A stretch of 23,670 nt of DNA from a virus. Each line of letters starts with the position of its first letter. Position 1 is the stretch's first letter. The position numbers were made by a program, and so were the translations under genes. The notes under the pieces are model-generated. The model made no database searches. It was given only the letters and a program-made list of their open reading frames with translations, and was not told the DNA's origin. Shown here piece by piece: positions 3,054-23,670 of this stretch. The stretch lies in IMG/VR virus record IMGVR_UViG_3300032006_000086, positions 1 to 23,670 of that record; one strand, 5' to 3'.

Positions 3054-3647
3054 ATGGCTCTAACTACAGAACTCGAAAGCGTAAACCAAATGCTTGGGCA
3101 TATTGGTGAAGCTCCCGTAAACTCCCTAGCCGACACAGCTGCTCTTCCTATTTCGGGAAGTATCGCTTTGACCACGCTACGTGAAATCGCAAAAGAAGTT
3201 CAAACTGAGGAATGGCACTTCAACACGATTAGTAAGTATGAGCCAATTCTTGAGGCAGACGGTAAGCTGCGCCTGCCAGACAACACTTTGTTTGTAGACC
3301 CGGTGGATAAGTCAGACGACTACGTCCAAAGGGGGTTGTATTTATATAATCGAAAAGACAAAACCTTTATCTTCACATCCACTGTTGAAGTTGATTTGAC
3401 CGAGCAGCTGGCATGGGATGACCTCCCAGAACCAGCGAGACGTTATATAACCCTCAGAGCGTCTCGTGTGTTCCAAGGGCGTATTGTTGGTAGTCGTGAG
3501 CTTGAATCGCTCATTGCTGCTGATGAGATGCAAGCGCGGGCGCGTCTTCAGGAACTTGATTCTCAGTCCTCTGACCGGACCATTTTCGATAGCTCTGATG
3601 TCTACTACAGACTGGGAGTTAATCGTAAATACAATGTAATTTCATAA
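3054..3647 (+). CDS. Tail tubular protein A (T7 gp11-like, adaptor/gatekeeper)
   Basis: The 197-aa protein has almost the same length as T7 gp11 (196 aa). It forms the ring joining portal and nozzle. Family features are the N-terminal LESVNQMLGHIGEAPVNSL segment, the EVQTEEWHFNT segment, and the central LFVDPVDKSDDYVQRGLYLYNRKDKTF strand region. The C-terminal helical part includes PEPARRYITLRASRVFQ. The gene starts right after the capsid terminator; the only SD-like sequence is inside the terminator stem, 15 bases before the ATG. It ends one base before the tail tube B start. Confidence 0.92.
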   Translation: MALTTELESVNQMLGHIGEAPVNSLADTAALPISGSIALTTLREIAKEVQTEEWHFNTISKYEPILEADGKLRLPDNTLFVDPVDKSDDYVQRGLYLYNRKDKTFIFTSTVEVDLTEQLAWDDLPEPARRYITLRASRVFQGRIVGSRELESLIAADEMQARARLQELDSQSSDRTIFDSSDVYYRLGVNRKYNVIS

Positions 3648-6600: not shown

Positions 6601-6870
6601 GGAAGCATCTTCTTTACGGATACGTCTCATTTTGTTGTTAAGGTCACTCCAGACCTCAGAGACACTTCAGAAAGCGCATTTAACGCTACTATAGTTCAAT
6701 CTACAGTAGAGGGCTCTATGCCTCTTGAAACGAATAGCTTCAGGTTCCCTGTATTTACGGACCCTAAAGGAACCACTATAACCATTGAGAACGCCACTGC
6801 TGCGCCCTGTAACCTTCAGAGCGCAGAATTTGAGTCTTTTGTGCATCAGCGTTCCAGAAGATATGGATAG
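3649..6870 (+). CDS. Tail tubular protein B / nozzle (T7 gp12-like) with inserted Ig-like domain
   Basis: This 1073-aa protein forms the nozzle of the short tail. The N-terminus (SNLIQGVSQQPDAVRFPGQ, about residues 9-27) and the C-terminal SFVHQRSRRYG are diagnostic of gp12. The middle keeps family blocks such as the SVASLLDNDTIDVTVSS region, LVMFSEFGQFVLRGG and YIYFPFRRGSFTGVREF. It is about 280 residues longer than T7 gp12. Much of the excess is a block at about residues 835-940, with NNGSETVPSFNIFVTGLP and LAAGATIAGLTLKYF. This reads like an Ig-like/CARDB-type beta-sandwich inserted before the conserved VGIPYLMKYTFSEQF strand. There is no clear RBS; the start is probably coupled to the upstream gene. 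The 3' end overlaps the next gene by 8 bases. Confidence 0.93.
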   Translation: MPLINSSVSNLIQGVSQQPDAVRFPGQCAEQENALSSVVDGLQKRPATQHVATLLTEVALDANAKVHFIERDNNERYVVIIKGTDNKTISAYNLTTGKQTRIDQKYRGLVNSFTITNDDAGAPSSADIEITTQCPLVIAANDDGTTPVGTLKVVGGGWTSAKRYNLMAVGDGEDKNILKIESLEDGITLFDTTKGELQSVIEYTITGTNSDLVLDSDSYLTDNSGEGVATLSVTPTVPKDDLSLMTTGDVTYVLNTKKPVSKDPISKTRPLDKSALVFIKQGDYEKKYGVRINIDGDANSPHEHHWYSGASQRKADGKFFNTAKNAQADTILAGLFSNDTETVYDAQGELEHTEAVGTNNGLGNLNANGFTADLLAPQIGKITGPDSPNWTIHPVDSMGGEGVGVVHKSVTALTDLPTVAPHRYKVEIAGDLEEQTDNRYVQFLTAGSDETTPDGEIGQGSWYEIGGANIPNHFNINTMPLMLRSTAENVFELGHMPLDGLLAGDDNTNPDPSFVGSTITGVFSFKGRLGFLSGASVSLTEVKFGSYDALNDIQHYNFYRMSVASLLDNDTIDVTVSSAHVVNLMSAVPFQDNLVMFSEFGQFVLRGGDLLTIKTVSANPITEYECDSSVAPVSLGSYIYFPFRRGSFTGVREFTMTVDRDVYDANEVTSHVPQYIPTNLVAMSGAASEELLALTDGTDVYIYKYFFSGNEKILSSWSKFTISGGGIRGLCFVDADLFIVQAVKGQTHLLKMPLENKYRDPSGFNTHLDRRVEREFKADATEPTIVVPYLLAEGETFEVYTKDGLLLQNTKTTVDGSSTLITFKDGVVSGGVPVTLDLATSGLTPSSFPAGSETGLDLDTGLWTQTLSVTNNGSETVPSFNIFVTGLPAGVTLYNADGEYGGRSFITNNTPLAAGATIAGLTLKYFQPDTSGGFTPQFSLGVPGNEVYVGIPYLMKYTFSEQFFGAPSGDKLSPTNVGRKLIRNGSIFFTDTSHFVVKVTPDLRDTSESAFNATIVQSTVEGSMPLETNSFRFPVFTDPKGTTITIENATAAPCNLQSAEFESFVHQRSRRYG

Positions 6871-8024: not shown

Positions 8025-10964
8025 ATGGCTAAAAGAACATCCCTAGCAAAGCAACTGGGTCTTTCAGATGACCCCGTGCAGCCGCAAAGTTTCAGTAGAG
8101 AGGCTTTTAAGTTATCCCCCGTTCCCGTGCGAGGGGGTGGTTGGTCTACTGCGGTCGCCGCTACACCCACACCGTCTCAAACTAACTTAGGACGTTTGTC
8201 TGGTGCTCTTTCTCAAGTGAGTGGTTTGTTAGCTCAAGCGAAAGCTTTTGAGGACAAGAAGCTTGAGATGGAACATAAAGGTCTTCAGATAGACCATCAA
8301 ACAGCTCTCTCCCAGCTTCAAGGGCAGGCTATGGATGCTCGTATTGGAGAGCTTGCGACCAAGATGGACATGGCCGAGCAGATGACAGCGGAAGCTGCTG
8401 AAGCGAACTACTGGGCTAGTATGTCGTTTGAGGAAAGAGAGCGAGCGGAGCGGGAGCAAGCGGAGTTTGTAGACGAAATAGGTAAAATTAGGACAGACGC
8501 TCAGAACGAGATGTTTAAACAGGAGGCTCAAACTCCTGAAGCTAAAAAAGACCCTGTAGTCAAAAACGAAAGAAGAGAGCTGTATAGAGGGGCTCAGGTA
8601 GCTAGAGATTTTCCAGCCGCTCTAACCGAGGCTCTACAAGAATGGGCTGAAGGAAGCGGCGAAGAAGGCGTTCAATTTAGACCCAGCGAGGAAGACTATA
8701 ATGAGTTCGTTATCCAATTTACTGAACGCTACAAAGGGGAACATAACATTGAGCTAGGAAGCACTGCTGACAGAGCTTTTAACGTGGGAACTAGGCGGGT
8801 CTTTGAAACTGTAGTCCCAACCGAAAAAGTTAAATTGTTTGCCGCTTTAGAGGGCGAAGTCCTCATAGATGATATCAAGCAGGCGGAACAAACTCTTGGT
8901 GATATACTCAGTGCAGGAGGGTCTGTATTGGATGAAGCCGCGCTGGAAGCTCCTTGGTGGAACACCCTTAAAGGAAGGAGTCTTAAACAGAAAGACGCTT
9001 TCTTTAAATTGTATGTTGACAACCTTTTAGCACAATCAGAAGCCAACCCAGCTGCATTAGAAACCGCTAAGTTTCTTCTTCGTCTTCCCGACAAAGACCC
9101 AGAGTTTAAATACAGGAGTGACGCTCCTTTCTCTGAGAGTAGTTTGTATCTAACCCAGTTAAATAGAATACTACTCGCAGAAGAGCAGCAGGAGGAAAAG
9201 AGAATAGCAAAAGACGGAAAGAAAGCGTCTCGCTTAACGAATCAACTAGCTCCCTTTATTGCGTGGAGCGCAAGAGGGCTTAGTGTCGATGAAAATTCTA
9301 GCAGGGCTATAAGCGCTCTTCAGCAGGCCTCTGCGCCTACCTCAGCGCTGTTTAGGAGTGTGTTCCCTACTGAACTCACAGAGCAAAATAAAGTGCTACT
9401 AGAGGAAATAGAAGCAGCACCTGAGTATATCCGCTCTGAAGTGGCTCAGTTTATCGCTAATAACTATGCGACTTTTGCTAATAACAAGGAGGGTACTTAT
9501 GAAGCTCTTCTCAAGCGCCTTACTCCTCAAAACCAACCTGAATATGGTCTCCTACCAAAAGACGGGGGCAGGTATACAGGTAGCGACATTGCAAGGGTCA
9601 TAAGGGAGGCTGGTATAGAATTATCCCGACAAGCCGCCGAATCTCTTGGCGATTTCGGAGGGAAAGACGGTCCTTACGGAGAGGGAGATGTACCGGATGA
9701 GGTGAAGGCTAAGCAGTTTTCCGATAAAAGGCTAAGAGAAGAAGTGTATGGTCCCGCCTTGGCTAACAGAAAAGCAGCAAGCCGCAACGCTGTTGAAAAC
9801 TATCTAAACGAATACGAAAGCGAACACGGTACTACGCCGGATATGGAGCAGGCAGCGAAAGATTTAATGCCCATACTAAGTGAAATATATGGCGATAGGA
9901 TGCTCGCTGACATTGCTAGGTATACTGAGGAATCTTTGGAGAGACAGCGGGAAATCGAAGAGATAAGAGCTGCTTCAGTTGAAAAAGGAACCTTAGAAGG
10001 ACTACGAAACGAGCATCGCTCGGTGGTACGCCCTGAGGAGGAATTTGGCGCTAACGAAGGTGCTATACCTTGGTGGGAAAGACAGGACATATATCCTTCC
10101 ACTATGGAGAATGAACCCTCCTTAGGGGCTCTACTTAAGTCCTTTAACGATAAAGCTATAAAAAGAGTTAAAGAAGGGGCAGACGTTACGCCTACCCAGA
10201 AAGCAGAAGAGGCTGACGTATTTCTAGATTCTCTATCTAAGGGGCGCGAAAGATATGAGACCTTAGAAAGAGAAGCTAGAAGAGGTATTATCGATTTATA
10301 CAAAACAGGGTATGGCGCTGTGACGAACTCTCCACCGCAAATGGGAAGGGAAAACTTCCCCGCAATGAAAGAGTTTTATCCTTTTTACTTTAAGCAGCAA
10401 AGAGCTTGGGAGCAAAAGATGGCACATGGAGTGAACATAGAAGACCTGAAAGGCTACATGAGCACCTCTATTGTAAACAACAAGTCTACAGGGCACGTCG
10501 TTATTGATACCCAAGAATCTTATTGGAACGAGGCTGCTGACGAACTGTATAGTGAACGCGGTAAGCGCCCCGAAAAGCACCCCAGTGATTGGAAGTACAA
10601 GGGTACTTGGATAGGGACTCCTACTAAGGGAATAAGACTCCCAGAGGATATTAGAGAAAGAACTACACGCCAGACCGCGCCCTACTTGTATATGGATAAC
10701 GGAGTGGGCTTGAATAAGCTGAAAATACTTAGACCTCCCATCGTTAATTTACCTCAAAATGTCGTTAAAAGAGACGCTGACGGTAGCATCAAATCCGTAA
10801 ACGAGAGCGCCTTTATAAAAGCCACTAACTTGAAACCGGAGGGGCTGAAGCAGCTAACGAACTATTACGGCTTTGAGACCCCTAAAGAGTTTATAATGTA
10901 TCAGTATGACCATCCCATTGCGCGGAGCCAAGTCCTTACCGGCAAAAAACTAGATTTTAAATAA
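8025..10964 (+). CDS. Internal virion protein C (T7 gp15-like ejection protein)
   Basis: A 979-aa protein, larger than T7 gp15 (about 747 aa), which forms the periplasmic tunnel during genome ejection. The N-terminus is short and basic, followed by an alanine/glutamine/glutamate-rich helical region with coiled-coil character (about residues 60-190). The rest is mostly predicted helical repeats without transmembrane segments, signal peptide or visible catalytic motif. Identification rests on size, composition and its place between gp14-like and gp16-like genes. The start has an AGGAG-type site in the end of the preceding gene. A C-terminal part (about 780-979) has more mixed composition and could bind internal protein D. 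Confidence 0.85.
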   Translation: MAKRTSLAKQLGLSDDPVQPQSFSREAFKLSPVPVRGGGWSTAVAATPTPSQTNLGRLSGALSQVSGLLAQAKAFEDKKLEMEHKGLQIDHQTALSQLQGQAMDARIGELATKMDMAEQMTAEAAEANYWASMSFEERERAEREQAEFVDEIGKIRTDAQNEMFKQEAQTPEAKKDPVVKNERRELYRGAQVARDFPAALTEALQEWAEGSGEEGVQFRPSEEDYNEFVIQFTERYKGEHNIELGSTADRAFNVGTRRVFETVVPTEKVKLFAALEGEVLIDDIKQAEQTLGDILSAGGSVLDEAALEAPWWNTLKGRSLKQKDAFFKLYVDNLLAQSEANPAALETAKFLLRLPDKDPEFKYRSDAPFSESSLYLTQLNRILLAEEQQEEKRIAKDGKKASRLTNQLAPFIAWSARGLSVDENSSRAISALQQASAPTSALFRSVFPTELTEQNKVLLEEIEAAPEYIRSEVAQFIANNYATFANNKEGTYEALLKRLTPQNQPEYGLLPKDGGRYTGSDIARVIREAGIELSRQAAESLGDFGGKDGPYGEGDVPDEVKAKQFSDKRLREEVYGPALANRKAASRNAVENYLNEYESEHGTTPDMEQAAKDLMPILSEIYGDRMLADIARYTEESLERQREIEEIRAASVEKGTLEGLRNEHRSVVRPEEEFGANEGAIPWWERQDIYPSTMENEPSLGALLKSFNDKAIKRVKEGADVTPTQKAEEADVFLDSLSKGRERYETLEREARRGIIDLYKTGYGAVTNSPPQMGRENFPAMKEFYPFYFKQQRAWEQKMAHGVNIEDLKGYMSTSIVNNKSTGHVVIDTQESYWNEAADELYSERGKRPEKHPSDWKYKGTWIGTPTKGIRLPEDIRERTTRQTAPYLYMDNGVGLNKLKILRPPIVNLPQNVVKRDADGSIKSVNESAFIKATNLKPEGLKQLTNYYGFETPKEFIMYQYDHPIARSQVLTGKKLDFK

Positions 10965-10972
10965 AAAGAATA

Positions 10973-13900
10973 ATGTCAGAATTCCCTACTACAGGCTCTC
11001 TCTTTGAAGAAAACCTTAAGAACTCCAGCCCGAATCCTGAAGGAGTAGCAGAGGGTAGCTCAATAATCCCCACAGCGTCTTATAGCAATACAGCTAAAGG
11101 AAGCCCTTTGCAGGGGGTAAACGCAGAAAAAAGCGAAGAGCCCCTTGCTTCTGCTGGCTTAGCTGTTCCTCCTACCGAAGAACGCGCAGATAAAACTCAG
11201 AGCCCAAGCACTGAAGACGACAAAATTGGTCTTGGGGATGTTGCAGGAGATATGGGCCTATTTGCGCTGAGAGGTGTGGAGGGCTTTGCTGAGAGTGTTG
11301 CTGGTTTGTTTGGTTCTAAGTGGGACAGAGAAGACTGGAGCGTCTTTGGGAAATCAAAAACCGTTGTAGGGTCTTTTGGTGAAAACCTTGTTCAATTTGG
11401 AATAGGGTTAATCCCCGGCTTGGGGACCGCAGGATGGGTTTCTAAAGCCGCTAAATTGAATAAAGGAAGTAAGCTCGCCAAGAGGGCAAGTACTCTTCGT
11501 AAGGCGCGAGCGCAGAAAAGCCTCGGTCACCAAGCAGCCTTTAGCGGAAAAGTACCAGCGCCTATCGCTCCCTTGGCTAAGGGGAATAGGTCTCTTGATA
11601 TAAAAACCCTTAAGCGCTTAGCTAAGATGAAGAAGACAGCTAAGACCGCTGCTATTTGGGGTTATGCAGGTGCCGTGTCTGACTTTGTAGCATTCAAAGG
11701 GCAAGAAGCGCGCCTGTCGAATCTGCTACAGGGGATGGGTGTTGAGAATGATTTGGTTCAGTATTTAGCGTATGACCCCACACAAGATTCCAGTGAAATG
11801 GAAGAACGCCTTAAGAATGTTATTGAAGGCGGTATTGTTGGTACAGCTGTTGGTGGTGTCATTGATATAGCGGGTAGAGCGGGAGCTTTTAAGTTTATTG
11901 GAAAGTCTATCGGTAAAATCAGACGCAAGAATCAGCTTGTTCACGAAGGAATGGACGAAGCTGAAGCTATCGAAAAAGCTGAAAGAGAGTTCGTAGAGGC
12001 TGTTTCAGATGACCCAGAAATGCTCCGAGAGATGGCGGATTTTGAGGCTCAGATGAAGCACGAACAGTATCTGAGAGATAACGGTGCCCTCCCGGCTCCT
12101 GCGCGTCTGGGAGGAGATGAGCTACCATTCGGAGGTAACGAGGACACGCTAGATGTCTGGTATGGTGCGGGTCAAAACAAAGAACTCAGCAACTTAGCTC
12201 CTAGACCGTTTACGTATGAAGGAAAGGAATACAAAAGCGTAGAACACGCATACCAGACGCTAAAGTCAGGGCGGTTTGATGACGCTACATACAGTAACCC
12301 TGCGTGGAATAGAGGCGGCGTTAAAATAAGAGGAAAGCTACAAGCTGACAAGGAGACTAATGTAGGCTTGATGGAGCGTCTTATTAGGGAGTCTTTCGAG
12401 CAGAATCCAGAGGCTTCTCAAGCGCTCCTTAAAACTAAAGGAAAGACTCTTACCCACCTAAGGGACAGAAGCATCTGGAGGGATAAGTTCCCCGAAGCGC
12501 TCACCAAGGTGCGCTCAGAGCTTGAAGCTAAGCAGCCTAAAGAAGCGCCTCCAGCTCGTGTTGAGGAGCCCTCAGGACCCACAATGCACTCTGGAGGAGC
12601 CAGTGGGGCTGACACAGTGTTCCAAGAGATGGCAGAGAAGGCAGGAATGAATGTTAAAGCTCATTCGTTTCGAGGACACGCTGCTGGTAACAAGCGGAGA
12701 GTGGAGCACACTCCCGAAGAGCTTAAGGAAGCCAACGAGCACCTTAAGAGAGCAAACAAGACTCTTAAGAGGAAATTCCCAGCAGGAAGCGCCTACGTCA
12801 ACAATCTCCTGAGAAGGAATTATTTTCAGGTTAAGGATGTTGACCAAGTGATTGCTGTGGGGCGGATTGAAAACGGACAGGTGCAGGGAGGAACTGCATG
12901 GGCTACCCAGATGGGCGTAGACATGGGTAAAGAAGTTCATGTGTTTGATATGAACACTAATAGCTGGCACTTCTGGGACGGCACCACTTGGGGTAAATCC
13001 GGTGAAGGAAAGAGGCCTATTTTGTCGGACAGCTTTGCTGGTATTGGCTCTAGGAATCTTTCTGATGAAGGCAAAGAAGCCATCCAGAATCTGTTCAAAG
13101 ACTCCGCCTTTATTAAGCGACGCAAAGCGGCGCACACCAGCGCCCAGTCGGCAGCTGGGAGGCAGTTGACCTCATTAGGCGAGAAGCCCCAAGAGACTTC
13201 TAGTAAGATTGTCCCTGTCAGCGACCCGGACGCTATTTCCGTCATGCGCGGCCCTCAGGGAAGGCACATGAATAACACCAAACCCGGAGAGCCGGGGTGG
13301 TTGGGGAACCCATTCAAATGGAAAGGGAACGGAGGCAAAGGAACGGTGGAAGAAGCCATCGCTAAGTTCAAGCAAGCCTTCTTGAAGCGTATTGAAGAAG
13401 ACCCAGCGTTTAAGGCTGAGCTAGAAGGAATCGTTGGGCGAAAGCTTGGTTACTACAAGCCTAAGGCTGAGAAAAGCCACGCTCAGGTTATTAAGGCGTG
13501 GTTGGACGAAGCAGGGGTAAGTAAGACTCCTAGAAGGGGGTTTAAGCCGACTAATACTTACACAGGGCTTGTGGATAAACTAAAAGAAAACCAAGTGTTT
13601 GTCTTTACCTCAAACCATAGAGGATTTCACGGAGCAGGTTCCGCAGGGTATGCCAGCTTTAATGTAAGCGGTAATAGATGGCGGGAGATGGGTTATGGTG
13701 AGCTACCTGACGGAACCCAAGGAAAATGGAATGTTAAAGGACAGGGCGAAGGTCTTCAAAAAGGAACTGAAGGAGAATCTTATGCTTTGCCTACCGTAAC
13801 AAAACCGGGCGCTAAAAAATCTATTCCAGAGGAAGAACTCGTCTCTAACATCAGGAAGATGTATGAGACAGCCCGAGCTAACCCTGAAAAAGAATTTTTA

Positions 13901-16900
13901 GTAGCTCAGAGCGCTAAAAAGGGACTCAGCGGGTGGAGCGGGGATGACATGGCTCGTATGTATCATGCGGCAGGGGAAGTCCCAGATAATGTTAAGTTTG
14001 AGCAGAGGTTTGGGGCCAAAATAGACAATCAAAGCAGGAAAGGCATTGACGAGTTCCCTGTAGGTGGTGCGGGAGGAGAAGCTCCCAAGAAACTCCCACT
14101 TCCTAAGATAAAGGGTGAGGATGCTACCGTGGACATGGTGGACGACCTAAGCGAGGCAGAACTTAATGAGTTCTTGTCTGAGTTTGGTGACCTAGATATC
14201 CCTAGCGTTGCCGGGGCGTTATCGACCAAGAGGCAGATAGCCAAAGACATTATCGAAGCTGGAGAGCACACGGGAGAGGTCATTGCGGACATCGAAGGCT
14301 TAGTAACTAAAGTTGTGAGCGAAGCTGGTGACGACTTCCTGACAGGAACAGGAGACCAAGCAATTCTTGCAGGAAGAAAGCTTCTTTCTGGGGTGCATAG
14401 TAATGAAGGACTAGTTGCGTTAGTTCGTGTTCTTGCGCGTAAAGCGGTCGAGAAACGCCATGATTTGCATGGCCCTTCTAGAAATGCGGAAGAAACATTC
14501 GACAGGGTGGAGAAGTCTCTTGTCGATAAAGACCACTGGGATGTCTTTGACAGGGACCTAGTTCACCAACGCCTAGAGCAGGCTAGAGGTAACGTAGACG
14601 CTTTGGAAAGAATCTATGCGGAACAAGACATGATTCACAAGCTCTACACTACTTTAGCTGAAGAGGTTGGAGAGTCGGTTAAGAGAGCCGAGAAAGCGAA
14701 GAAGACAAAGGGCACCGTCACTTTTGATATCATGGAAGACGGGGTGGCCAAGCAGGCGGTATACGGTTACGAGGAGTTGCTTACTGAGGTGTATTCAAAC
14801 CTCGATAAGTTCTTGGCTGTTAAAGAACTGTGGGCTGAGTACGGAACCCACCTTTCGCTGGGGATGCTTCAACGCAAGTTCATCTACGAAGGCACAGGAA
14901 CAAGGGGCATAACTCGTAGAAAAGACTTAGGGTTCAGGCCCAAGATGAAAGGTGTAGACTATGACCAGTCTATGGAAAGGAGGGCTTATATGCAGGGAGT
15001 TAGAGGGTCCAGAAGCCAACGTCAATTCCTAGCGGAACTCAGACAGGCGACTAACGCCTCAGACCTAGAGGCTGCTTTAGGTAAAATAGGTAAAGACTCT
15101 AGAAACGGGTTCGCCAGAACTATGGGTTGGTATCTCAACGCTTTGCTCAGTAACCCTGTGACTTGGGGCGTTAACATGGTTGGAAGCGCTATTATGAAAG
15201 GCTTTAGAGACTTTGAGGTCATTGCGGGAAGTATGGCGCAGTTCGCGCATACTGGTAATGCTGACCTGCTAAGAACTCGTATTAAAGCCATCTACGACAT
15301 GGAGTCTTTTATGGAGGCATGGAAGTATGCCGCTATTAGCCTTAAAGAAGGAGAGCCAAGAAGTATTGCTGGGCACACCGCTTATTCAGACAACAGGTTT
15401 GAAGATATGAAATCAGGGTGGCACTTCGGAGACGGAGATGACCCCCTGACTAGGGCCGGTAATTGGTTTGGTAATCTTGTATCAGGACCTTCTAGAGTCC
15501 TCATGGCTGGTGATGAGTTCTTTAAGCAGTGGAACTACCGCTCATACGTAAAGGCAGATTTAGCTATGGAGGCGCACAGGAGAGGCATAAAGGACCCGTA
15601 CGAAATAGCCTCTTACGTTAGAGACTCCTTTGAATCACACATGACCAAAGAAGGGCGCATAGCCAATGAGGCCAATGTTTATAAAGAAGCCGCGCAAGCA
15701 GCGGACGACAACGGGCTTAGGTTTGGAAAAAGAGCCTCCTTTATTGACGAATACATGGATGAGCACTTTTACGAAAACAACCTGAGACTTGATGACGGCT
15801 TTGTCTACCGGACTACAGAGCAGAGAGACTTACTAGTTAACAGAGCCACCGACTGGGCTTTGGTTAACACTTTCACAAACAATCCTTCTCATCCATTTGC
15901 TAGGTGGGTTTCTAAAACAGCTATGGCGCACCCTTGGCTTTCGTTCGCTATTCCCTTTGTTAGAACCCCGACAAATATCCTTACGTTCGCCATGAGCAGG
16001 GTAATCCCGCTACCCGGATGGGGCAAAGCACATCAAGCATTTGATGTTCAGGATGTGCTGGATAAAAGAGGCAGGCCCGGCGGCTATGGCGCTTTGAGTC
16101 TTAATCCTAACAGATTTACGGTAGGCAGTGAGCAGGCGATAATGAACACTAATCGTTACGCCAAAGCCGCAAGAGGACAAGACACCGGGATGGAGCTTCC
16201 AGCGGACGCTAGGGAAAGATACGAAAATTCAGAGTGGAACGAACCTGTAGTGAAAAGGGAAGAAATACCTTTAAAGAAGGCAGACGGAAGACATCAAGCT
16301 CCCGCTTTCATTAGATATGACGAAGGACCTACTGGAACAATCCACATAGACGAAGCTAGAATCAAAGAGATGTATGACCGTAAAGCTTGGAGAGCGGATG
16401 GTCCTAACGTGGTTCCGGGGGTAAAGCCCCTAGATGACAAGCACTTCAAAACCCCTGAAGATTTTGAAAACTTTGTTATGGAGCACGAAAAAGCGCATCA
16501 GTATCTCAGGCAAAGAAAGCGCGAAAACGAATCAAAGGGTGACTATGAAAACAGAGTAAACCAAGAAGCTTTGAAGCGGCTTGAGTTTAAGAAAAATCAC
16601 GGCTCTGGCTGGCAAAAGCAGCTAAAAGAGCAATACGGTGATATGCCGTTTTCTGAGGCTATGGCGAAAGAGCACCTACACGCGCAAGCGCAAGCTGGTG
16701 CGGTAGCCGCAGCTGAGCACCACGGAAGACTGACTACCGCTGCTATGATGACGGCAAGTTCGTTGTACACTATAGAGCTTATTCAGGAACGTATTACAGG
16801 TTCCCCACCAGAATCTAGAGCTGCTAAAGCTGCGTGGGATGCTGCTGGAAAGAGGCCTTGGTCTATTCTAGTTGGCGAAGGAGAAGACGCTAAATGGGTT

Positions 16901-17806
16901 AGCTACCAAAGAATGGACCCGTTTGCTACCATTATAGGTATATTTGCTGATATCGTACACATGACTCCTGCTTTAGCGGGAGAAGACGAAGCGATGGGCA
17001 TGATTGCGACTGACTCAGAGATAGAAGACGGTATGCAGGCTATGTCTAAGGTAGCCGCAATCATCTCAATGACATTCACCAATAACATCACTAACGGGTC
17101 TTATGTAGAGGGGCTTTACGAAACTATGGAAACTTTCAAGGACCTTACTAAGGCCCCTGAGTTTCTAGCGAAAATCGCATCTGGGTTCGTTCCTACGGGG
17201 CTTACTTGGACAGAAAACCTAGTAGAAAAAGACCCTCAAATTTATGAGGCTCGTAAGTTGCTAGACCATGTGATGAAGAAAGTCCCAACCTATATGCGCC
17301 CAGATATGCCTGAGACGCCTGTGACGTCGGCTAGGCTGGAACCAAGAAGGAACTGGCTGGGAGAAAAGATAAAGAAGACAGGACCGTTCCTTCCTTCTTT
17401 TATTGGTCTTGGTCAGCAAGTTCCCTCTTCAACAGACCCTGTTGACTTAGAGCTTCTTTCTATAGGTAAAGGGTTCTTACAGAGACCCTCTATATGGAGC
17501 GGCGTGTTGGACACTAAGAAGTTCAGAAACACTAACGGAGGTCAGTCAGCGTACGACAGGCATCAAGAGCTGCTTTCTACTATGAATCTTGGAGGGCGAA
17601 CTGCTAGGCAGTCTATTAGGGCGTTAATTGAGAGCCCTAAATACCAAGCTCTTCCCCCGGCTACAGACATGACTATTGGGAAGACGCATCCAAGACAGAG
17701 AGCTATAGCTAAAATACTTAATTTCTACTCAGACCACGCTAAAAACCAAGTGATGGAAGAGTACCCGGAATTGAGACAGGCTTATTACCAAACCTTACAA
17801 CAATAA
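10973..17806 (+). CDS. Internal virion protein D (T7 gp16-like) polyvalent protein with NADAR, SLOG-like, DUF4326, A1S_2505-like and HExxH domains
   Basis: This 2277-aa core protein is far longer than T7 gp16 (1318 aa). Residues 1-80 look disordered. About 85-330 is an Ala/Gly-rich region with GxxxG-type hydrophobic segments (LVQFGIGLIPGLGTAGWV; IEGGIVGTAVGGV). Residues ~390-520 are NADAR-like (LSNLAPRPF; SVEHAYQ at 422-428). Residues ~535-710 are a SLOG/DprA-like Rossmann domain (SGGASGAD 540-547, VQGGTAW from 637, FAGIGSRNL 688-696). Residues ~753-850 are DUF4326-like (WLGNPF 776-781), and ~873-1013 A1S_2505-like (VFTSNHRGFHGAG). The conserved core-protein region follows (~1350-1700: LLSNPVTWGVNMVGS, LMAGDEFFKQWNYR, FVRTPTNIL). 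HEKAH lies at 1838-1842, with Glu1865 in NRVNQEAL as a possible third zinc ligand. The C-terminus has YQRMDPFATIIGIFADI. No N-terminal lytic transglycosylase motif is seen. By analogy with T7 it would be ejected into the host. Confidence 0.88.
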   Translation: MSEFPTTGSLFEENLKNSSPNPEGVAEGSSIIPTASYSNTAKGSPLQGVNAEKSEEPLASAGLAVPPTEERADKTQSPSTEDDKIGLGDVAGDMGLFALRGVEGFAESVAGLFGSKWDREDWSVFGKSKTVVGSFGENLVQFGIGLIPGLGTAGWVSKAAKLNKGSKLAKRASTLRKARAQKSLGHQAAFSGKVPAPIAPLAKGNRSLDIKTLKRLAKMKKTAKTAAIWGYAGAVSDFVAFKGQEARLSNLLQGMGVENDLVQYLAYDPTQDSSEMEERLKNVIEGGIVGTAVGGVIDIAGRAGAFKFIGKSIGKIRRKNQLVHEGMDEAEAIEKAEREFVEAVSDDPEMLREMADFEAQMKHEQYLRDNGALPAPARLGGDELPFGGNEDTLDVWYGAGQNKELSNLAPRPFTYEGKEYKSVEHAYQTLKSGRFDDATYSNPAWNRGGVKIRGKLQADKETNVGLMERLIRESFEQNPEASQALLKTKGKTLTHLRDRSIWRDKFPEALTKVRSELEAKQPKEAPPARVEEPSGPTMHSGGASGADTVFQEMAEKAGMNVKAHSFRGHAAGNKRRVEHTPEELKEANEHLKRANKTLKRKFPAGSAYVNNLLRRNYFQVKDVDQVIAVGRIENGQVQGGTAWATQMGVDMGKEVHVFDMNTNSWHFWDGTTWGKSGEGKRPILSDSFAGIGSRNLSDEGKEAIQNLFKDSAFIKRRKAAHTSAQSAAGRQLTSLGEKPQETSSKIVPVSDPDAISVMRGPQGRHMNNTKPGEPGWLGNPFKWKGNGGKGTVEEAIAKFKQAFLKRIEEDPAFKAELEGIVGRKLGYYKPKAEKSHAQVIKAWLDEAGVSKTPRRGFKPTNTYTGLVDKLKENQVFVFTSNHRGFHGAGSAGYASFNVSGNRWREMGYGELPDGTQGKWNVKGQGEGLQKGTEGESYALPTVTKPGAKKSIPEEELVSNIRKMYETARANPEKEFLVAQSAKKGLSGWSGDDMARMYHAAGEVPDNVKFEQRFGAKIDNQSRKGIDEFPVGGAGGEAPKKLPLPKIKGEDATVDMVDDLSEAELNEFLSEFGDLDIPSVAGALSTKRQIAKDIIEAGEHTGEVIADIEGLVTKVVSEAGDDFLTGTGDQAILAGRKLLSGVHSNEGLVALVRVLARKAVEKRHDLHGPSRNAEETFDRVEKSLVDKDHWDVFDRDLVHQRLEQARGNVDALERIYAEQDMIHKLYTTLAEEVGESVKRAEKAKKTKGTVTFDIMEDGVAKQAVYGYEELLTEVYSNLDKFLAVKELWAEYGTHLSLGMLQRKFIYEGTGTRGITRRKDLGFRPKMKGVDYDQSMERRAYMQGVRGSRSQRQFLAELRQATNASDLEAALGKIGKDSRNGFARTMGWYLNALLSNPVTWGVNMVGSAIMKGFRDFEVIAGSMAQFAHTGNADLLRTRIKAIYDMESFMEAWKYAAISLKEGEPRSIAGHTAYSDNRFEDMKSGWHFGDGDDPLTRAGNWFGNLVSGPSRVLMAGDEFFKQWNYRSYVKADLAMEAHRRGIKDPYEIASYVRDSFESHMTKEGRIANEANVYKEAAQAADDNGLRFGKRASFIDEYMDEHFYENNLRLDDGFVYRTTEQRDLLVNRATDWALVNTFTNNPSHPFARWVSKTAMAHPWLSFAIPFVRTPTNILTFAMSRVIPLPGWGKAHQAFDVQDVLDKRGRPGGYGALSLNPNRFTVGSEQAIMNTNRYAKAARGQDTGMELPADARERYENSEWNEPVVKREEIPLKKADGRHQAPAFIRYDEGPTGTIHIDEARIKEMYDRKAWRADGPNVVPGVKPLDDKHFKTPEDFENFVMEHEKAHQYLRQRKRENESKGDYENRVNQEALKRLEFKKNHGSGWQKQLKEQYGDMPFSEAMAKEHLHAQAQAGAVAAAEHHGRLTTAAMMTASSLYTIELIQERITGSPPESRAAKAAWDAAGKRPWSILVGEGEDAKWVSYQRMDPFATIIGIFADIVHMTPALAGEDEAMGMIATDSEIEDGMQAMSKVAAIISMTFTNNITNGSYVEGLYETMETFKDLTKAPEFLAKIASGFVPTGLTWTENLVEKDPQIYEARKLLDHVMKKVPTYMRPDMPETPVTSARLEPRRNWLGEKIKKTGPFLPSFIGLGQQVPSSTDPVDLELLSIGKGFLQRPSIWSGVLDTKKFRNTNGGQSAYDRHQELLSTMNLGGRTARQSIRALIESPKYQALPPATDMTIGKTHPRQRAIAKILNFYSDHAKNQVMEEYPELRQAYYQTLQQ

Positions 17807-19680: not shown

Positions 19681-21342
19681 ATGGAAGTCCCAGATAAGCT
19701 GAAAGACTTTCGCAATTTTCTATACATAGTATGGAAAGAGCTTAACCTACCAGACCCAACTACTATTCAATATGAAATCGCTGATTACATGCAAAAAGGA
19801 GATAGACGAGCTATTATCGAAGGCTTTAGGGGAGTCGGTAAAAGTTGGATATGCTCTGCATTCGTTGTCCACCAGCTCTTGCTCGACCCAAGAAGAAACA
19901 TCCTTGTTGTCTCTGCGTCAAAAACAAGAGCAGACGATTTCAGCACTTTTACACTTAGACTCATCCATGAGTTGCCTCTTCTCGCTCATTTGCGACCAAG
20001 TGAAAAACAAAGATTCTCTAAAATCAGCTTTGACGTCGGACCCGCGCCAGCCTCCCACGCCCCCTCCGTCAAATCCTTGGGAGTCACGTCTCAACTGACG
20101 GGCTCACGGGCTGACATCATCGTCGCAGACGACATTGAGGTGGTGGGCAATAGCGCCACCCAAGGGATGCGCGACAAGCTTGGCGAACAGGTCAAGGAGT
20201 TCGACGCAATCATCAAGCCCGATACTGACTCCAAGATATTGTTCCTTGGAACACCACAGTGCGAGGACACAATCTACAACAAGCTCACTGAGCGGGGATA
20301 CAAAAAACGCATTTGGCCTGCTAAATACATCACAGAAAAGGTCAATGAGACTGGGTATGACGGGTGTGTTAGTGAGTTGTGTGTTGATGAGAGCAGGGTA
20401 GGGGCCACCACAGAGCCCCTGAGGTTTTCTGACATCGACCTAGCGGAGCGAGAAGCGTCCTACGGGCGCACCGGGTTCGCCATGCAGTTCATGCTGGATA
20501 CCCGCCTGAGCGACATCGAGAGGTTCCCGCTGAAGACCAGCGACCTCATAGTGATGTCTGTGGACCCCGAGGTGGCTCCTGAGAAGCTTGTGTGGGCCAG
20601 AGACCCTAAACTGGAGTGGGACTCCTCTGTGCCCAATGTGGCGCTCTCAGGGGACAGATTCTACCGCCCTATGGAAGTCCTTGGGGACTACATCCCATAC
20701 ACAGGCTCTGTGATGGCTATCGACCCCTCAGGACGGGGCAAGGATGAGACCGGATACGCCATCGTCAAGATGCTCAATGGATACCTCTACGTGGTAGATG
20801 CCGGGGGTCTCCAAGGCGGATATAGCGACGAGGTCCTCAAGGCCCTTTCAATAAAGGCCAAACAACAGAAAGTGAACTTCATCGTGGTCGAAAGTAACTT
20901 CGGGGACGGGATGTTCGTGGAGCTTTTCAAGCCCATCCTTACCAAGATTCACCCATGCACCATCGAGGAAGTCAGACACAACATCCAGAAAGAGAAAAGA
21001 ATCATCGATACCCTAGAACCCGTGATGAACCAGCACAGGCTGGTGGTTGACCCGAAAGTCATACAACATGACTATGAAAGCGCACAGACGTATCCGCTAG
21101 AATCACAGCTGAAATACCAGCTAATCTACCAGATGTCCCGCTTAACGAACCAAAGAGGGGCCATTACGCAGGATGACCGCCTTGATGCACTCAGTATGGC
21201 GGTCGCATATTGGACAGAACAGATGGCTCAGGACGCTGATAAGCGCATGAATGAGCGTAAAGTAGACCTTCTAGACGAGGAATTAAGGCGATTTGAGGAG
21301 TCCTACACGGGTAAATCAAGCCTACAAACCACTTGGATGTGA
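19681..21342 (+). CDS. Large terminase subunit, ATPase and nuclease (T7 gp19-like)
   Basis: The 553-aa packaging motor is near T7 gp19 in length (586 aa). Motifs in order are Walker A GFRGVGKSW at residues 48-56 (Lys54) and Walker B IIVADD with Asp150/Asp151. The C-terminal RNase H-like nuclease has AIDPSGRGKDETGYA with Asp348, VVESNFGDG with Glu404, and QDDRLDAL with Asp498/Asp502. The ATPase translocates DNA into the procapsid and the nuclease cuts concatemers at genome ends. It lies at the end of the late region, as in T7. A phage using this terminase type would be expected to have direct terminal repeats; the window alone does not show them. Confidence 0.95.
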   Translation: MEVPDKLKDFRNFLYIVWKELNLPDPTTIQYEIADYMQKGDRRAIIEGFRGVGKSWICSAFVVHQLLLDPRRNILVVSASKTRADDFSTFTLRLIHELPLLAHLRPSEKQRFSKISFDVGPAPASHAPSVKSLGVTSQLTGSRADIIVADDIEVVGNSATQGMRDKLGEQVKEFDAIIKPDTDSKILFLGTPQCEDTIYNKLTERGYKKRIWPAKYITEKVNETGYDGCVSELCVDESRVGATTEPLRFSDIDLAEREASYGRTGFAMQFMLDTRLSDIERFPLKTSDLIVMSVDPEVAPEKLVWARDPKLEWDSSVPNVALSGDRFYRPMEVLGDYIPYTGSVMAIDPSGRGKDETGYAIVKMLNGYLYVVDAGGLQGGYSDEVLKALSIKAKQQKVNFIVVESNFGDGMFVELFKPILTKIHPCTIEEVRHNIQKEKRIIDTLEPVMNQHRLVVDPKVIQHDYESAQTYPLESQLKYQLIYQMSRLTNQRGAITQDDRLDALSMAVAYWTEQMAQDADKRMNERKVDLLDEELRRFEESYTGKSSLQTTWM

Positions 21343-21346
21343 GAAA

Positions 21347-21661
21347 ATGGCCACTATACAACCCCCAAACCATATCAATGTGGCTGGTATACGCATCCCA
21401 GTCCACATTAAAGAAGAAATGCCGGGTCGTCTCGCTGAGTATGACCCCGAAATGCGGTGCATAAACATCCACGTTAGCGTCCTAAGGGACCGACAGCTGT
21501 TCAGAGCTACGCTAGTTCACGAAGTGATCCATTGTGCCCTCGACTTGGCTGGCATATCGTTCAACACAAGCAGAGTCCTTTCTGAAAAAATAGAAGAACA
21601 GGTGGTCTCAGCAGTAGAGAGCCTAGCCGCTCCAGCCATTATAAGGGTGTGGAGGTTGTAA
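21347..21661 (+). CDS. Small HExxH metallopeptidase-like protein
   Basis: A 104-aa soluble protein with a zinc-peptidase motif HEVIH at residues 58-62 in a helix (TLVHEVIHCALDLAG). A following acidic helix (EKIEEQVVSAVESL, about 80-93) could supply the third ligand, probably Glu83 or Glu84. The arrangement is like small SprT- or ImmA/IrrE-type phage proteins of unknown target. It starts 4 bases after the large terminase stop. The frame is open upstream of 21347, but that part lies inside the terminase gene. T7 has no equivalent. Possible roles are late proteolysis of a host or virion protein, or a structural zinc protein. Confidence 0.75.
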   Translation: MATIQPPNHINVAGIRIPVHIKEEMPGRLAEYDPEMRCINIHVSVLRDRQLFRATLVHEVIHCALDLAGISFNTSRVLSEKIEEQVVSAVESLAAPAIIRVWRL

Positions 21662-21685
21662 GAGAGGGCATATATGGAGACCGGG

Positions 21686-21721
21686 GGACGCTCTAAGTAC
21701 ACTTAGAGTTGTCCTACGGAC
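21686..21721 (+). promoter_or_regulatory. Hairpin with mutually exclusive pairings downstream of the metallopeptidase gene
   Basis: An 8-bp stem, CTCTAAGT (21691-21698) with ACTTAGAG (21701-21708), is flanked by GGAC (21686-21689) and GTCC (21711-21714), which can extend it. The same GTCC can instead pair with GGAC at 21718-21721 in a 3-base-loop hairpin, so two folds compete. There is no T-tract, so it is not a standard terminator. It may be an RNA processing site, a regulatory fold or an operator. Confidence 0.45.
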
Positions 21722-21732
21722 AATAATAACAA

Positions 21733-21786
21733 TCCACCTATAATGGATGTGGAATGTGAGTTATAAGTGGTTATTAGCACTTATAA
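21733..21786 (+). promoter_or_regulatory. AT-rich region with TATAAT and a 9-bp inverted repeat
   Basis: A perfect TATAAT lies at 21739-21744, inside a small hairpin (TCCAC 21733-21737 with GTGGA 21749-21753). No convincing -35 box is at the usual distance, so the promoter call is weak. Just downstream is a perfect 9-bp inverted repeat, TTATAAGTG (21761-21769) and CACTTATAA (21778-21786), with an 8-base spacer. It is operator-like in form, with no T-run after it. Confidence 0.35.
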
Positions 21787-21841
21787 GCCCACCAACAGCG
21801 CACTCATAGTGTAACCCTGAGTACCCCTTGTCAAACATAAA

Positions 21842-21913
21842 ATGAAAAGACGTTTCAGACGCCAAGTGCGCTCCAGACAAAGGAGGCGCAGAGTAGCCAA
21901 AAAAGACTTTTGA
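21842..21913 (+). CDS. Possible 23-aa arginine-rich peptide
   Basis: A short open frame from ATG 21842 to TGA 21911-21913 encodes MKRRFRRQVRSRQRRRRVAK plus three residues, with 11 of 23 residues Arg or Lys in the first two thirds alone. The composition recalls tiny nucleic-acid-binding packaging peptides of small phages. There is no clear ribosome binding site, and a run this short could be chance. It is listed because no other gene occupies 21662-22019. Confidence 0.25.
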   Translation: MKRRFRRQVRSRQRRRRVAKKDF

Positions 21914-21976
21914 GCTTGTCCGTAGACAGGTTCTACCTACGTTTTGTTGCGTGTTGTGTGTTGTGTGTAACGCAAA

Positions 21977-22009
21977 GTCCCTTGGCCCTCTCAACGAGGG
22001 CTGAGGGGC
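21977..22009 (+). promoter_or_regulatory. 14-bp hairpin covering the RBS of the next small gene
   Basis: Positions 21977-21990 pair with 21996-22009 around the loop TCAAC, giving 14 continuous pairs including three G-U wobbles in RNA. The core is GCCCTC with GAGGGC. The right arm contains GAGGGG (22003-22008), the SD-like sequence for the GTG start at 22020. No T-run follows. Upstream at 21947-21967 are three 7-base tandem units (TTGCGTG, TTGTGTG, TTGTGTG). The hairpin could gate translation of the downstream pair of small genes. Confidence 0.55.
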
Positions 22010-22019
22010 AACGCTTCCA

Positions 22020-22208
22020 GTGAAACCAATGGGCTCTAAAAGAGGTAAATACGACAAAGGACGAGACCGAACTAACAGGAAACCCGACTACCTACGTGGT
22101 CTCTCCTCTTCGGTCAACAAAGCGTGTGACGACTGGCTCAGGAAAAAGGGACTAAAAGCTCTTAGCTGGAAAGAGCAACTCAAAGGGAAGCAAAATGAAG
22201 GTCATTGA
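22020..22208 (+). CDS. Small basic protein of unknown function
   Basis: A 62-aa, Lys/Arg-rich soluble protein beginning MKPMGSKRGKYDKGRDR. It has a central SSVNKACDDWLRKKGLKAL helix and a charged tail. I do not recognise a family. Start choice: GTG at 22020 has GAGGGG 11 bases upstream; the ATG at 22029 (59 aa) lies too far from that site. It overlaps the next small gene by 14 bases, so the two are probably translated together. The position after the terminase region corresponds to where T7 has its small gene 19.5. Confidence 0.55.
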   Translation: MKPMGSKRGKYDKGRDRTNRKPDYLRGLSSSVNKACDDWLRKKGLKALSWKEQLKGKQNEGH

Positions 22209-22362
22209 TGTCTCAAAATACTGGGGTCAAATACAGACCATCAGCAAAAGGGCTGTTATCAAGAGCACCTTGGAGAAGCTCTCTGAACACCTAGAGGGAG
22301 ATGAGAAAGCTACAGGCTTGCTCAAGGAACTCAGGGCCCTTTGTTTAGGTGAAAATATCTGA
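22195..22362 (+). CDS. 55-aa protein of unknown function
   Basis: The ATG at 22195 has a good ribosome binding site (AAGGGAAG a few bases upstream) and lies within the end of the preceding gene in another frame. The 55-aa product is soluble and mostly helical, with a hydrophobic/charged pattern in KSTLEKLSEHLEGDEKATG and LLKELRALCLG. It has no recognised motif. RBS and overlap make it a credible gene; it is the last one before the non-coding region. Confidence 0.6.
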   Translation: MKVIDVSKYWGQIQTISKRAVIKSTLEKLSEHLEGDEKATGLLKELRALCLGENI

Positions 22363-22502
22363 GAGGGTAACGCTCTAGCGTGATTAGGGGCCGCCCCCCA
22401 TACCCCCCGTCCGCTGCCGGAATCCACCTCGCTCTCCTCGCTCCTCCGCGCCAGACCGTAGGCATTACTTGCCTCCTCCGCGCTGGGACGCACAGGGACC
22501 GC

Positions 22503-22551
22503 CCAATGCGCGCCCTTGGACGGGCTTAAAGTGGCGCATTGGAAGAGCCCG
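22503..22551 (+). ncRNA. Possible H-type pseudoknot
   Basis: A perfect 9-bp helix joins CCAATGCGC (22503-22511) and GCGCATTGG (22534-22542). CGGGCT in its loop (22521-22526) can pair with AGCCCG just outside (22546-22551), giving an H-type pseudoknot with connecting loops of 9, 7 and 3 bases. An alternative local pairing inside the loop (GCCC 22512-22515 with GGGC 22522-22525) would compete with the second helix. The 3-base loop is tight for a 9-bp helix, so the two helices might alternate instead. Confidence 0.45.
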
Positions 22552-22768
22552 TTGCCTCTCCTAAGCGCAGCCTTGGGGTGGTTCGCGTGTGATTGATTGT
22601 GCTGGCGTTTTTTACTATCACGCACCTAGATACCTCTGGGGCCTTCAGCCGGACGCTTGCTCAGCGGGAGCCAAGGAATGTCCTTGGATGCCTTTGTCTT
22701 GAGTCCGTGTTGCGCTGCCGTGTGGCCCAGCCACCCGGAGTCGCACAACAAGTCCACAAGACGGGCTC

Positions 22769-22789
22769 AGTGGATGCAGTAGCTCCACT
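22769..22789 (+). repeat. Hairpin with repeated 13-base core, copy 1
   Basis: The core GATGCAGTAGCTC (22773-22785) sits between AGTG and CACT, forming a 6-bp stem (GA/TC pairs included) with loop TGCAGTAGC. The identical core recurs at 23340-23352 between different but equally complementary flanks. The loop contains the palindrome TGCA, which could allow loop-loop pairing. Confidence 0.65.
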
Positions 22790-22805
22790 AAGCAGCCAGT
22801 GAGGC

Positions 22806-22866
22806 CTCCAGCCGGGTGCGACTTGCGACACGCTTCGCGCAAGGGAGAAGGCGCTGGGGTTTTTTT
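22806..22866 (+). terminator. Terminator-like stem with T-tract
   Basis: CTCCAGC (22806-22812) pairs with GCTGGGG (22853-22859), 7 bp with one wobble, around a 40-base loop that contains a CTTGCG/CGCAAG hairpin. Seven T follow at 22860-22866. The large loop makes it less typical than the capsid terminator. It could end transcription from the late operon or an upstream non-coding RNA. Confidence 0.4.
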
Positions 22867-23048
22867 CTGCTGCTGGTTTCCTCATTGGGATTCACTGCGT
22901 TCACCCACACATGGCGACAAGGGCAAGGCGTCAGGTCCAACAACTCCGTCGCTGCGCTCCTTCAACAAATTCCTCATAAGCAAATTGGCGGTCATGCCAA
23001 TTCACTTATTTCCTCATTTCTTGGAGCTTGTTGGCTGACACTCTCCCA

Positions 23049-23100
23049 TATTTTTGGTTGTTGTAGTTAGCGCTACGCGGCTATTGATGAATCAAAAATA
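23049..23100 (+). repeat. Structured element A (helix plus inner hairpin with bulged A)
   Basis: The outer helix pairs 23049-23059 (TATTTTTGGTT) with 23090-23100 (AATCAAAAATA), 11 bp with one G-U. The inner hairpin is TAGTT, bulged A at 23069, GCG, loop CTA, CGC, GGCTA (23064-23083). Element B repeats the same design with different bases. Confidence 0.65.
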
Positions 23101-23178
23101 GGGGGCCCGACCCTTGCGCCCCGTCCCAACTCTGTTGCCCCTTTTTGTCCGTCTCATGCCCCACTTAGGAGTCTAATC

Positions 23179-23270
23179 GAGCAGCAGTGTAACCGTCGTT
23201 TTTTTGCCTGTGTAGTAGTTAGGCGCTGCGCGCCGACTATCATTAGGCAAAAATAACTTGGTGGCTGCTC
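23179..23270 (+). repeat. Structured element B (same design as element A, longer closing stem)
   Basis: GAGCAGC (23179-23185) pairs with GCTGCTC (23264-23270), and ACC/GGT adds three pairs inside. The T/A-rich helix is TTTTTGCCT (23201-23209) with AGGCAAAAA (23245-23253). The inner hairpin is TAGTT, bulged A at 23221, GGCGC, loop TGC, GCGCC, GACTA (23216-23239). It matches element A in arrangement, including the bulged A. Confidence 0.65.
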
Positions 23271-23278
23271 TCAGCAGA

Positions 23279-23451
23279 GTGTCGCTTTTTGAAGGCTCTA
23301 TGAAGCACAGCTTAACGCGCTTGATGCAGAAAGTACACAGATGCAGTAGCTCTGTGTTCTTTCCGCCCAGCTAAAAGATGTCTCGCGACAAATCTTTTAT
23401 CTTACAAGCGCTACTGTGCTTCATGTACGAGCCTACAAAAATGGGCGACAC
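23279..23451 (+). ncRNA. Three-way-junction RNA domain
   Basis: Five stacked helical segments close the domain: GTGTCGC/GCGACAC (23279-23285 with 23445-23451), TTTTTG/CAAAAA (23286-23291 with 23436-23441), AGGCTC/GAGCCT (23293-23298 with 23429-23434), an 11-bp segment (23300-23310 with 23414-23424), and GCGCTTG/CAAGCGC (23317-23323 with 23405-23411). That is 37 pairs in total. Two hairpins branch from it: 23329-23340 with 23352-23363 (12 positions, one T-T mismatch), which carries core copy 2, and TAAAAGA/TCTTTTA plus TGTC/GACA with loop TCGC (23372-23399). It lies inside the 14-bp helix 23151-23164/23459-23472. Confidence 0.7.
23335..23357 (+). repeat. Hairpin with repeated 13-base core, copy 2
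   Basis: The core GATGCAGTAGCTC (23340-23352) sits between ACACA and TGTGT, giving a 7-bp stem with loop TGCAGTAGC. The core is identical to that at 22773-22785 while the flanking stem differs and remains paired, so the hairpin rather than the flank sequence is kept. Confidence 0.7.
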
Positions 23452-23518
23452 CTGTGGGGTGGGGCATGAGACAGGGAGGGGGCAATCCGTTGGGACTTAT
23501 GTGTAGGGTGGGAAACCT

Positions 23519-23670
23519 ATGCATCCGACTGATACATACCAAACGACAGTCTGCCCCTATTGCGGGAGCAAGACAGAGCCCGTAGGAACAACTCCAACCC
23601 TCCGCACGTTCATGGCGTGTGCCTCTATGAGTCGAGAGACTATCTTCGACTACCAACTATCATACTTAGC
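23519..23670 (+). CDS. 5' end of a small CPxC zinc-binding protein (partial)
   Basis: The frame is open from ATG 23519 to the window edge, 50 codons. It begins MHPTDTYQTT and has a CPYCG zinc-knuckle at residues 12-16, followed by GSKTEPVG. One further Cys at residue 35 (MACAS) is visible so far. An AGGGTGGG sequence 7-14 bases before the ATG can serve as RBS, but it is also the right arm of the outermost helix of the upstream structured region. Proteins with CPxCG starts are frequent among small early phage proteins. Function cannot be assigned; the rest lies outside the window. Confidence 0.5.
   Translation, partial: MHPTDTYQTTVCPYCGSKTEPVGTTPTLRTFMACASMSRETIFDYQLSYL

Follow-up and report, generated by a model that had tools for sequence, protein, structure and literature searches.

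In phage T7, the first early gene is immediately preceded, in the leader of the early transcript, by the RNase III site R0.3, which is irregular and double-stranded. The genome ends of T7-like phages fall at the junction of late and early genes, and genes that all lie on one strand are a general trait of the group. Two other structures offer comparisons of shape: the packaging RNA of phage phi29, which is ~170 nt long, is encoded near the genome end and consists of a closing helix and two arms at a three-way junction, and the inverted terminal repeat of AAV, which is T-shaped, with a long stem and two small tip arms, strand-symmetric and almost purely Watson-Crick paired. A repeat of the AAV type lies at the physical end of the genome and is resolved by a Rep nickase. 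GOLLD, ROOL and OLE are large, branched ornate RNAs, the first two of phage origin (PMC12286853). The T7-like phage LUZ100 has 244-bp direct terminal repeats, and an antisense RNA has been reported for it (PMC10134795).

The DNA analysed here (the window) is a linear virus fragment of 23,670 bases from IMG/VR and represents part of the genome of a T7-like marine phage. Pfam matches identify an amidase (1133–1837), a Gp10A-like capsid protein (1935–2990), a tail tube protein (3054–3647), a nozzle (3649–6870) and, on the plus strand, a T7-type terminase large subunit (19681–21342), which served as the anchor for finding relatives. The related terminases belong to marine autographiviruses, with Ayaqvirus S45C18 being the closest annotated record (74%). 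All identified genes of the window run on the plus strand. The late gene cluster also encodes a 2277-residue protein (10973–17806) that is an array of nucleotide-related domains, with weak matches to NADAR and DUF4326 and a DprA-like PHROG match; the position of its gene points to a putative internal virion protein, perhaps an injected one. A small protein encoded next to the terminase (21344–21661) carries a HEVIH zinc-protease-like motif and matches PHROG 1233, whose function is unassigned, while its SprT match lies below the cut-off.

No convincing long gene was found between ~21661 and 23518. Two short elements, 22343–22374 (around CTGAGAGGGTAACGCTCTAGCGTGA) and 22565–22613 (plus strand, ending in GGCGTTTTTT), are kept 3′ of the terminase across many relatives and are candidates for terminal-repeat, packaging or transcription signals. 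The second marks the late side of a non-coding interval, at the other end of which lies a putative open reading frame on the plus strand (23519–23668) with a CPYCG motif, which runs off the record. It has no family assignment, and a scan for its protein returned no matches. Judging from the relatives, it is probably the first early gene.

The strongest fold of the window is a 173-nt domain at 23279–23451, for which RNAfold gives a single dominant structure on the plus strand, with identical MFE and centroid (the minus strand folds as well). The domain had been described in an earlier note as five stacked helices closing on two arms in a three-way junction, and this architecture was reproduced: helices of 8 bp (23279–23286/23444–23451), 5 bp (23287–23291/23436–23440), 6 bp (23293–23298/23429–23434), 12 bp (23299–23310/23414–23425) and 7 bp (23317–23323/23405–23411) lead to arm 1 (23326–23366, plus strand, with the tip GATGCAGTAGCTC) and to the predicted arm 2 (23369–23402, plus strand). 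The helices add up to 38 closing pairs (8+5+6+12+7) rather than the 37 counted earlier. The domain has an MFE of −79.1 kcal/mol, compared to −43.3 ± 4.2 kcal/mol in 200 dinucleotide shuffles (z −8.4), and its z ranges from −8 to −10 across tests. Among all 173-nt windows, scanned with a correction for GC content, it ranks first on both strands at 5.6 standard deviations, the next best values elsewhere being 3.9 on the plus and 3.2 on the minus strand. The domain is real, and the earlier note was right that it is not a product of chance. It was also right that this is not a tRNA: ARAGORN finds neither a tRNA nor a tmRNA in the window, the record being a fragment.

The domain does sit at the tip of a 14-bp helix, as had been noted, but it is not an independent object. 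It forms one branch of a larger unit of ~376 nt (~23125–23500, plus strand) with a predicted branched fold, located in the non-coding stretch that separates the late genes from the open reading frame at 23519; the z of the unit is −10 to −12 on the plus and −12 to −15 on the minus strand. Its outer helices (23125–23130/23489–23494, 23134–23144/23476–23486 and the 16-bp 23151–23166/23457–23472) enclose two branches, the domain and its sister, hairpin arm A (23179–23272, plus strand), which contains ACTATCAT at 23236. The long-range 14-bp helix, with the plus-strand arms GTCTCATGCCCCAC (23151–23164) and GTGGGGCATGAGAC (23459–23472), is a perfect inverted repeat whose arms are 294 nt apart, and it ends 46 nt before the ATG at 23519. 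The unit itself ends at ~23494–23500, about 20–25 nt before this ATG. The longest helices in the predicted fold are of 16, 12 and 10–11 bp. The idea that all of 22650–23500 is exceptional was rejected, the signal being confined to 23125–23500: the 5′ part of the interval (22614–23124, plus strand) has little structure (z about −2 to −3), and it is the 3′ unit that accounts for most of the low z of the 851-nt stretch as a whole.

Comparison with an IMG/VR contig from another sample (L002; terminase 99% identical, 95% identity over 21661–23403) indicates that the base pairing is kept through compensatory changes. Arm A has a double change from C-G to A-T at 23207/23247. Arm 1 has a double change from A-T to G-C at 23335/23357, an A·C mismatch of the window (23328/23364) that is repaired to A-T, and a complete inserted extra hairpin. 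In arm 2, the apical loop holds both substitutions (UCGC to UUAC on the plus strand, GCGA to GUAA on the minus strand), while the lower part of arm A is rebuilt in L002, not simply conserved. Several indels relative to L002 break any reading frame, so the structured region is non-coding; indels also break the frame in 22614–23124. The alignment stops at 23403, within arm 2, and L002 is therefore a partial homolog of the domain and the sole one: pattern scans of viral contigs for the domain returned only L002, and a scan for its 3′ half returned nothing. Contigs L083–L085, which have 18-mer matches, show no similarity beyond the word in surroundings that look protein-coding, and were rejected. 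Palindromic chimeras are known from metagenome assemblies, and an inverted chimera created in assembly or amplification would be one origin of such a stretch. This explanation is largely refuted by L002, an independent contig in which this unit recurs with differences that compensate each other; the arms, moreover, differ throughout, and we consider an artefact exceedingly improbable.

In two more distant relatives, L007 and L009 (terminase 91%), similarity to the window extends to about 22383; they share a further conserved element, past which their sequence is unrelated to that of the window and has a z of about −6 to −9 overall and about −5 to −6 in a 3′ domain. They contain an 11-bp long-range helix, TCCTAGCATGA/TCATGCTAGGA, with arms 387/414 nt apart, which ends 46–53 nt before the first early open reading frame. 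Two double changes are clear in this pair (8997/9119 and 9515/9537), and the same place (9303–9333) holds an 11-bp hairpin whose sequence is new throughout. The structured parts of the window and of L007/L009 show neither sequence homology nor a conserved core sequence, and their likeness of layout is suggestive only. The non-coding interval is ~900–990 nt long in three phages, compared to about 70–100 nt in others (103 nt in L005 and 71 nt in L013 between the ...GGCGTTTTTT element and the first open reading frame). In the other relatives, no 300-nt stretch equals the structure value of the window, and the structure is absent from relatives whose terminase is 85–92% identical.

Which strand and which molecule the structure belongs to is not named by the fold itself, because both strands fold about equally and the pairing is nearly all Watson-Crick. 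On the minus strand, the z of the domain is −10.1, and with DNA parameters the domain takes the same shape at a z of −9.5. Minus-strand z values are similar or better overall and slightly better in most comparisons, with z varying by 1–3 units between runs with the shuffle set, while the energy is lower on the plus strand for arm A and for the whole unit. On either strand, shuffles gain more from G·U pairs than the structure does, unlike what would be expected for an old RNA, and the pairing has too few exceptions to point to a strand. A systematic list did not bear out a general preference of small hairpin loops for one strand. We place the structure on the plus strand because the identified genes of the window run on it.

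The strand symmetry is what the main rival model would explain. Here, the inverted repeats would be DNA-level palindromes at the late/early genome junction (a terminal repeat or concatemer junction), acting as DNA hairpins during replication, packaging cuts or the formation of ends, with a shape like the T-shaped terminal repeat of parvoviruses. Like the AAV-type repeat, the structure is long-stemmed, strand-symmetric and nearly purely Watson-Crick paired, with two tip arms, and it is located where T7-like genomes end. Unlike the AAV case, the window comes from a tailed phage, its ends are perhaps not physical ends, and no Rep-type protein was seen in it. The model would not explain why the structure is missing from close relatives (terminases 85–92% identical). 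The spacing of the 14-bp arms (294 nt, or 387/414 nt between the arms in L007/L009) is far for a cruciform, and added hairpins and wholesale replacement of helices fit poorly with a sequence-specific cut site. We regard this model as possible but doubtful.

A structured antisense RNA made from the minus strand would agree with the slightly better z values of that strand. Two small clues lean the same way: the pair 23328/23364, read on the minus strand, is U·G in the window and U-A in L002, and the loop of arm 2 is a GNRA loop in both (GCGA and GUAA, respectively). The antisense RNA of LUZ100 provides a precedent in a T7-like phage (PMC10134795). The direction of the identified genes, the lower plus-strand energies of arm A and the whole unit, and the 1–3-unit shifts of z between shuffle runs speak against such an RNA, and a consensus scan of the interval showed no minus-strand promoter; we find it improbable.

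The structure matches no catalogued RNA family. A comparison with known large RNAs and with three-way-junction RNAs, the latter suggested by the earlier note, produced no match at the gathering score among 4227 Rfam families, including group I and II introns and other catalogued RNAs; GOLLD, ROOL and OLE are not among the Rfam matches up to an E-value of 10, and phage and plasmid records contain no close homologs. The domain resembles the phi29 packaging RNA in size, closing helix, two arms and three-way junction, but has no Rfam match. Furthermore, the phi29 RNA goes with the packaging ATPase, whereas the structure is missing where the terminase is 85–92% identical, which rules out an essential packaging RNA. 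Large size and branching are shared with GOLLD, ROOL and OLE, but the window structure lacks an Rfam match and a common conserved region, and GOLLD and ROOL are often found near tRNA genes, whereas this fragment has no tRNA. An RNA in the style of these large ornate phage RNAs could act in trans, whether as decoy, scaffold or accessory early factor, and stand before the first early gene by chance. Its occurrence as an accessory, the preservation of its helices while the sequence changes fast, and its branched, tip-rich shape would suit this role, as would the 13-nt tip sequence present twice (22773 and 23340) and the long non-coding interval of the three phages. The absence of an Rfam match and of a core sequence common to the window and L007/L009, together with the unexceptional 5′ part of the interval, make such an RNA rather unlikely.

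Our preferred reading, which we hold tentatively and at somewhat less than an even chance, is that the structure is the 5′ leader of an early transcript, acting like T7 R0.3 but much larger. It would be transcribed on the plus strand, like the genes of the window, and its long Watson-Crick helices would serve as a processing and protecting element. A double-strand-specific nuclease, e.g. RNase III, would cut the helices, giving the early mRNA a fixed 5′ terminus some 20–50 nt ahead of the first early gene. Drift of the sequence and the gain of hairpins would be tolerated, provided that the helices stay closed. This reading fits the place before the first early open reading frame, the long helices and the occurrence of large versions in some relatives only. 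Like R0.3, the structure is irregular and double-stranded, and its predicted 16-bp, 12-bp and 10–11-bp helices provide the kind of long irregular helix that could serve RNase III. The open reading frame that begins about 20–25 nt past its end is, judging from relatives, putatively the first early gene. Unlike R0.3, the structure is several times larger and branched and precedes an unrelated first early gene, and its transcription and cleavage are predictions.

In favor of the leader are the strength of the fold and its uniqueness in the window, the double changes, repaired mismatch and added hairpin apparent in L002, the non-coding position past the terminase region and the ...GGCGTTTTTT element and before the open reading frame at 23519, and the similar layout in L007/L009 with unrelated sequence. 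Against it stand the consensus scan of the interval, which showed no sigma-70-like promoter, the similar or better z of the minus strand, the two small clues that lean to it and the lack of a G·U gain beyond shuffles. Most relatives also do without such a leader, and the one homolog is partial, ending at 23403. The structure might also belong to a class of large branched RNAs that some marine T7-like phages make where their early region begins. Such RNAs would lie outside every catalogued family and act as accessory early factors, exchanging their sequence one helix after another under a constant architecture, with a long-range closing helix ~50 nt ahead of the first early gene and a multi-branch interior. 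Such a class is conceivable, though we consider it unlikely.

If transcribed, the structure would be a large leader or non-coding RNA of marine T7-like phages present in no searched catalogue and evolving too fast for sequence searches to link its members, and it would offer a test case for the processing and protection of early mRNA in such phages. If it acts as DNA, it bears on how T7-like genome junctions are handled.

The GATGCAGTAGCTC tip of arm 1 (23340–23352) is the second copy of a 13-nt sequence also present 567 bases upstream (22773–22785), where it could form a similar hairpin that is not part of the local MFE structure. In a survey of 134 sites with this sequence, longer stems are about as many as chance predicts. 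Two unrelated phage contigs, L210 (minus strand, ~9434–9575 of the reverse complement) and L135 (2054–2195), share a 93%-identical intergenic piece with the GATGCAGTAGCTC tip in a longer hairpin; this likeness to the window is probably a coincidence, since the variable pair was already prescribed by the patterns used in the search.

Downstream of the terminase in eight relatives (L014, L016, L023, L034, L030, L048, L058 and L009), no other heptamer comes close to ACTATCA in strand asymmetry: it has 61 copies on the gene strand and 0 on the other, compared to about 0.2–2.4 per locus expected from a third-order Markov model. Most copies have T or C as the next base. In these loci, hardly any copies lie on the 5′ side of the terminase, and those of the early region fall inside and between genes. 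The window has three copies, all after 22600, at 22614, 23236 (inside arm A) and 23656. Apart from the following pyrimidine and a weak one at −2, the flanks show no further conservation. The promoters of the relative LUZ100, by contrast, are 17 bp long, and ACTATCAY was rejected as a classical T7-type promoter. In L012 and L018, repeated GC-rich hairpins of the TGCTCGCTAATCGCGAGCA type occur 1.5–2.2 kb past the terminase, shortly before ACTATCAC copies.
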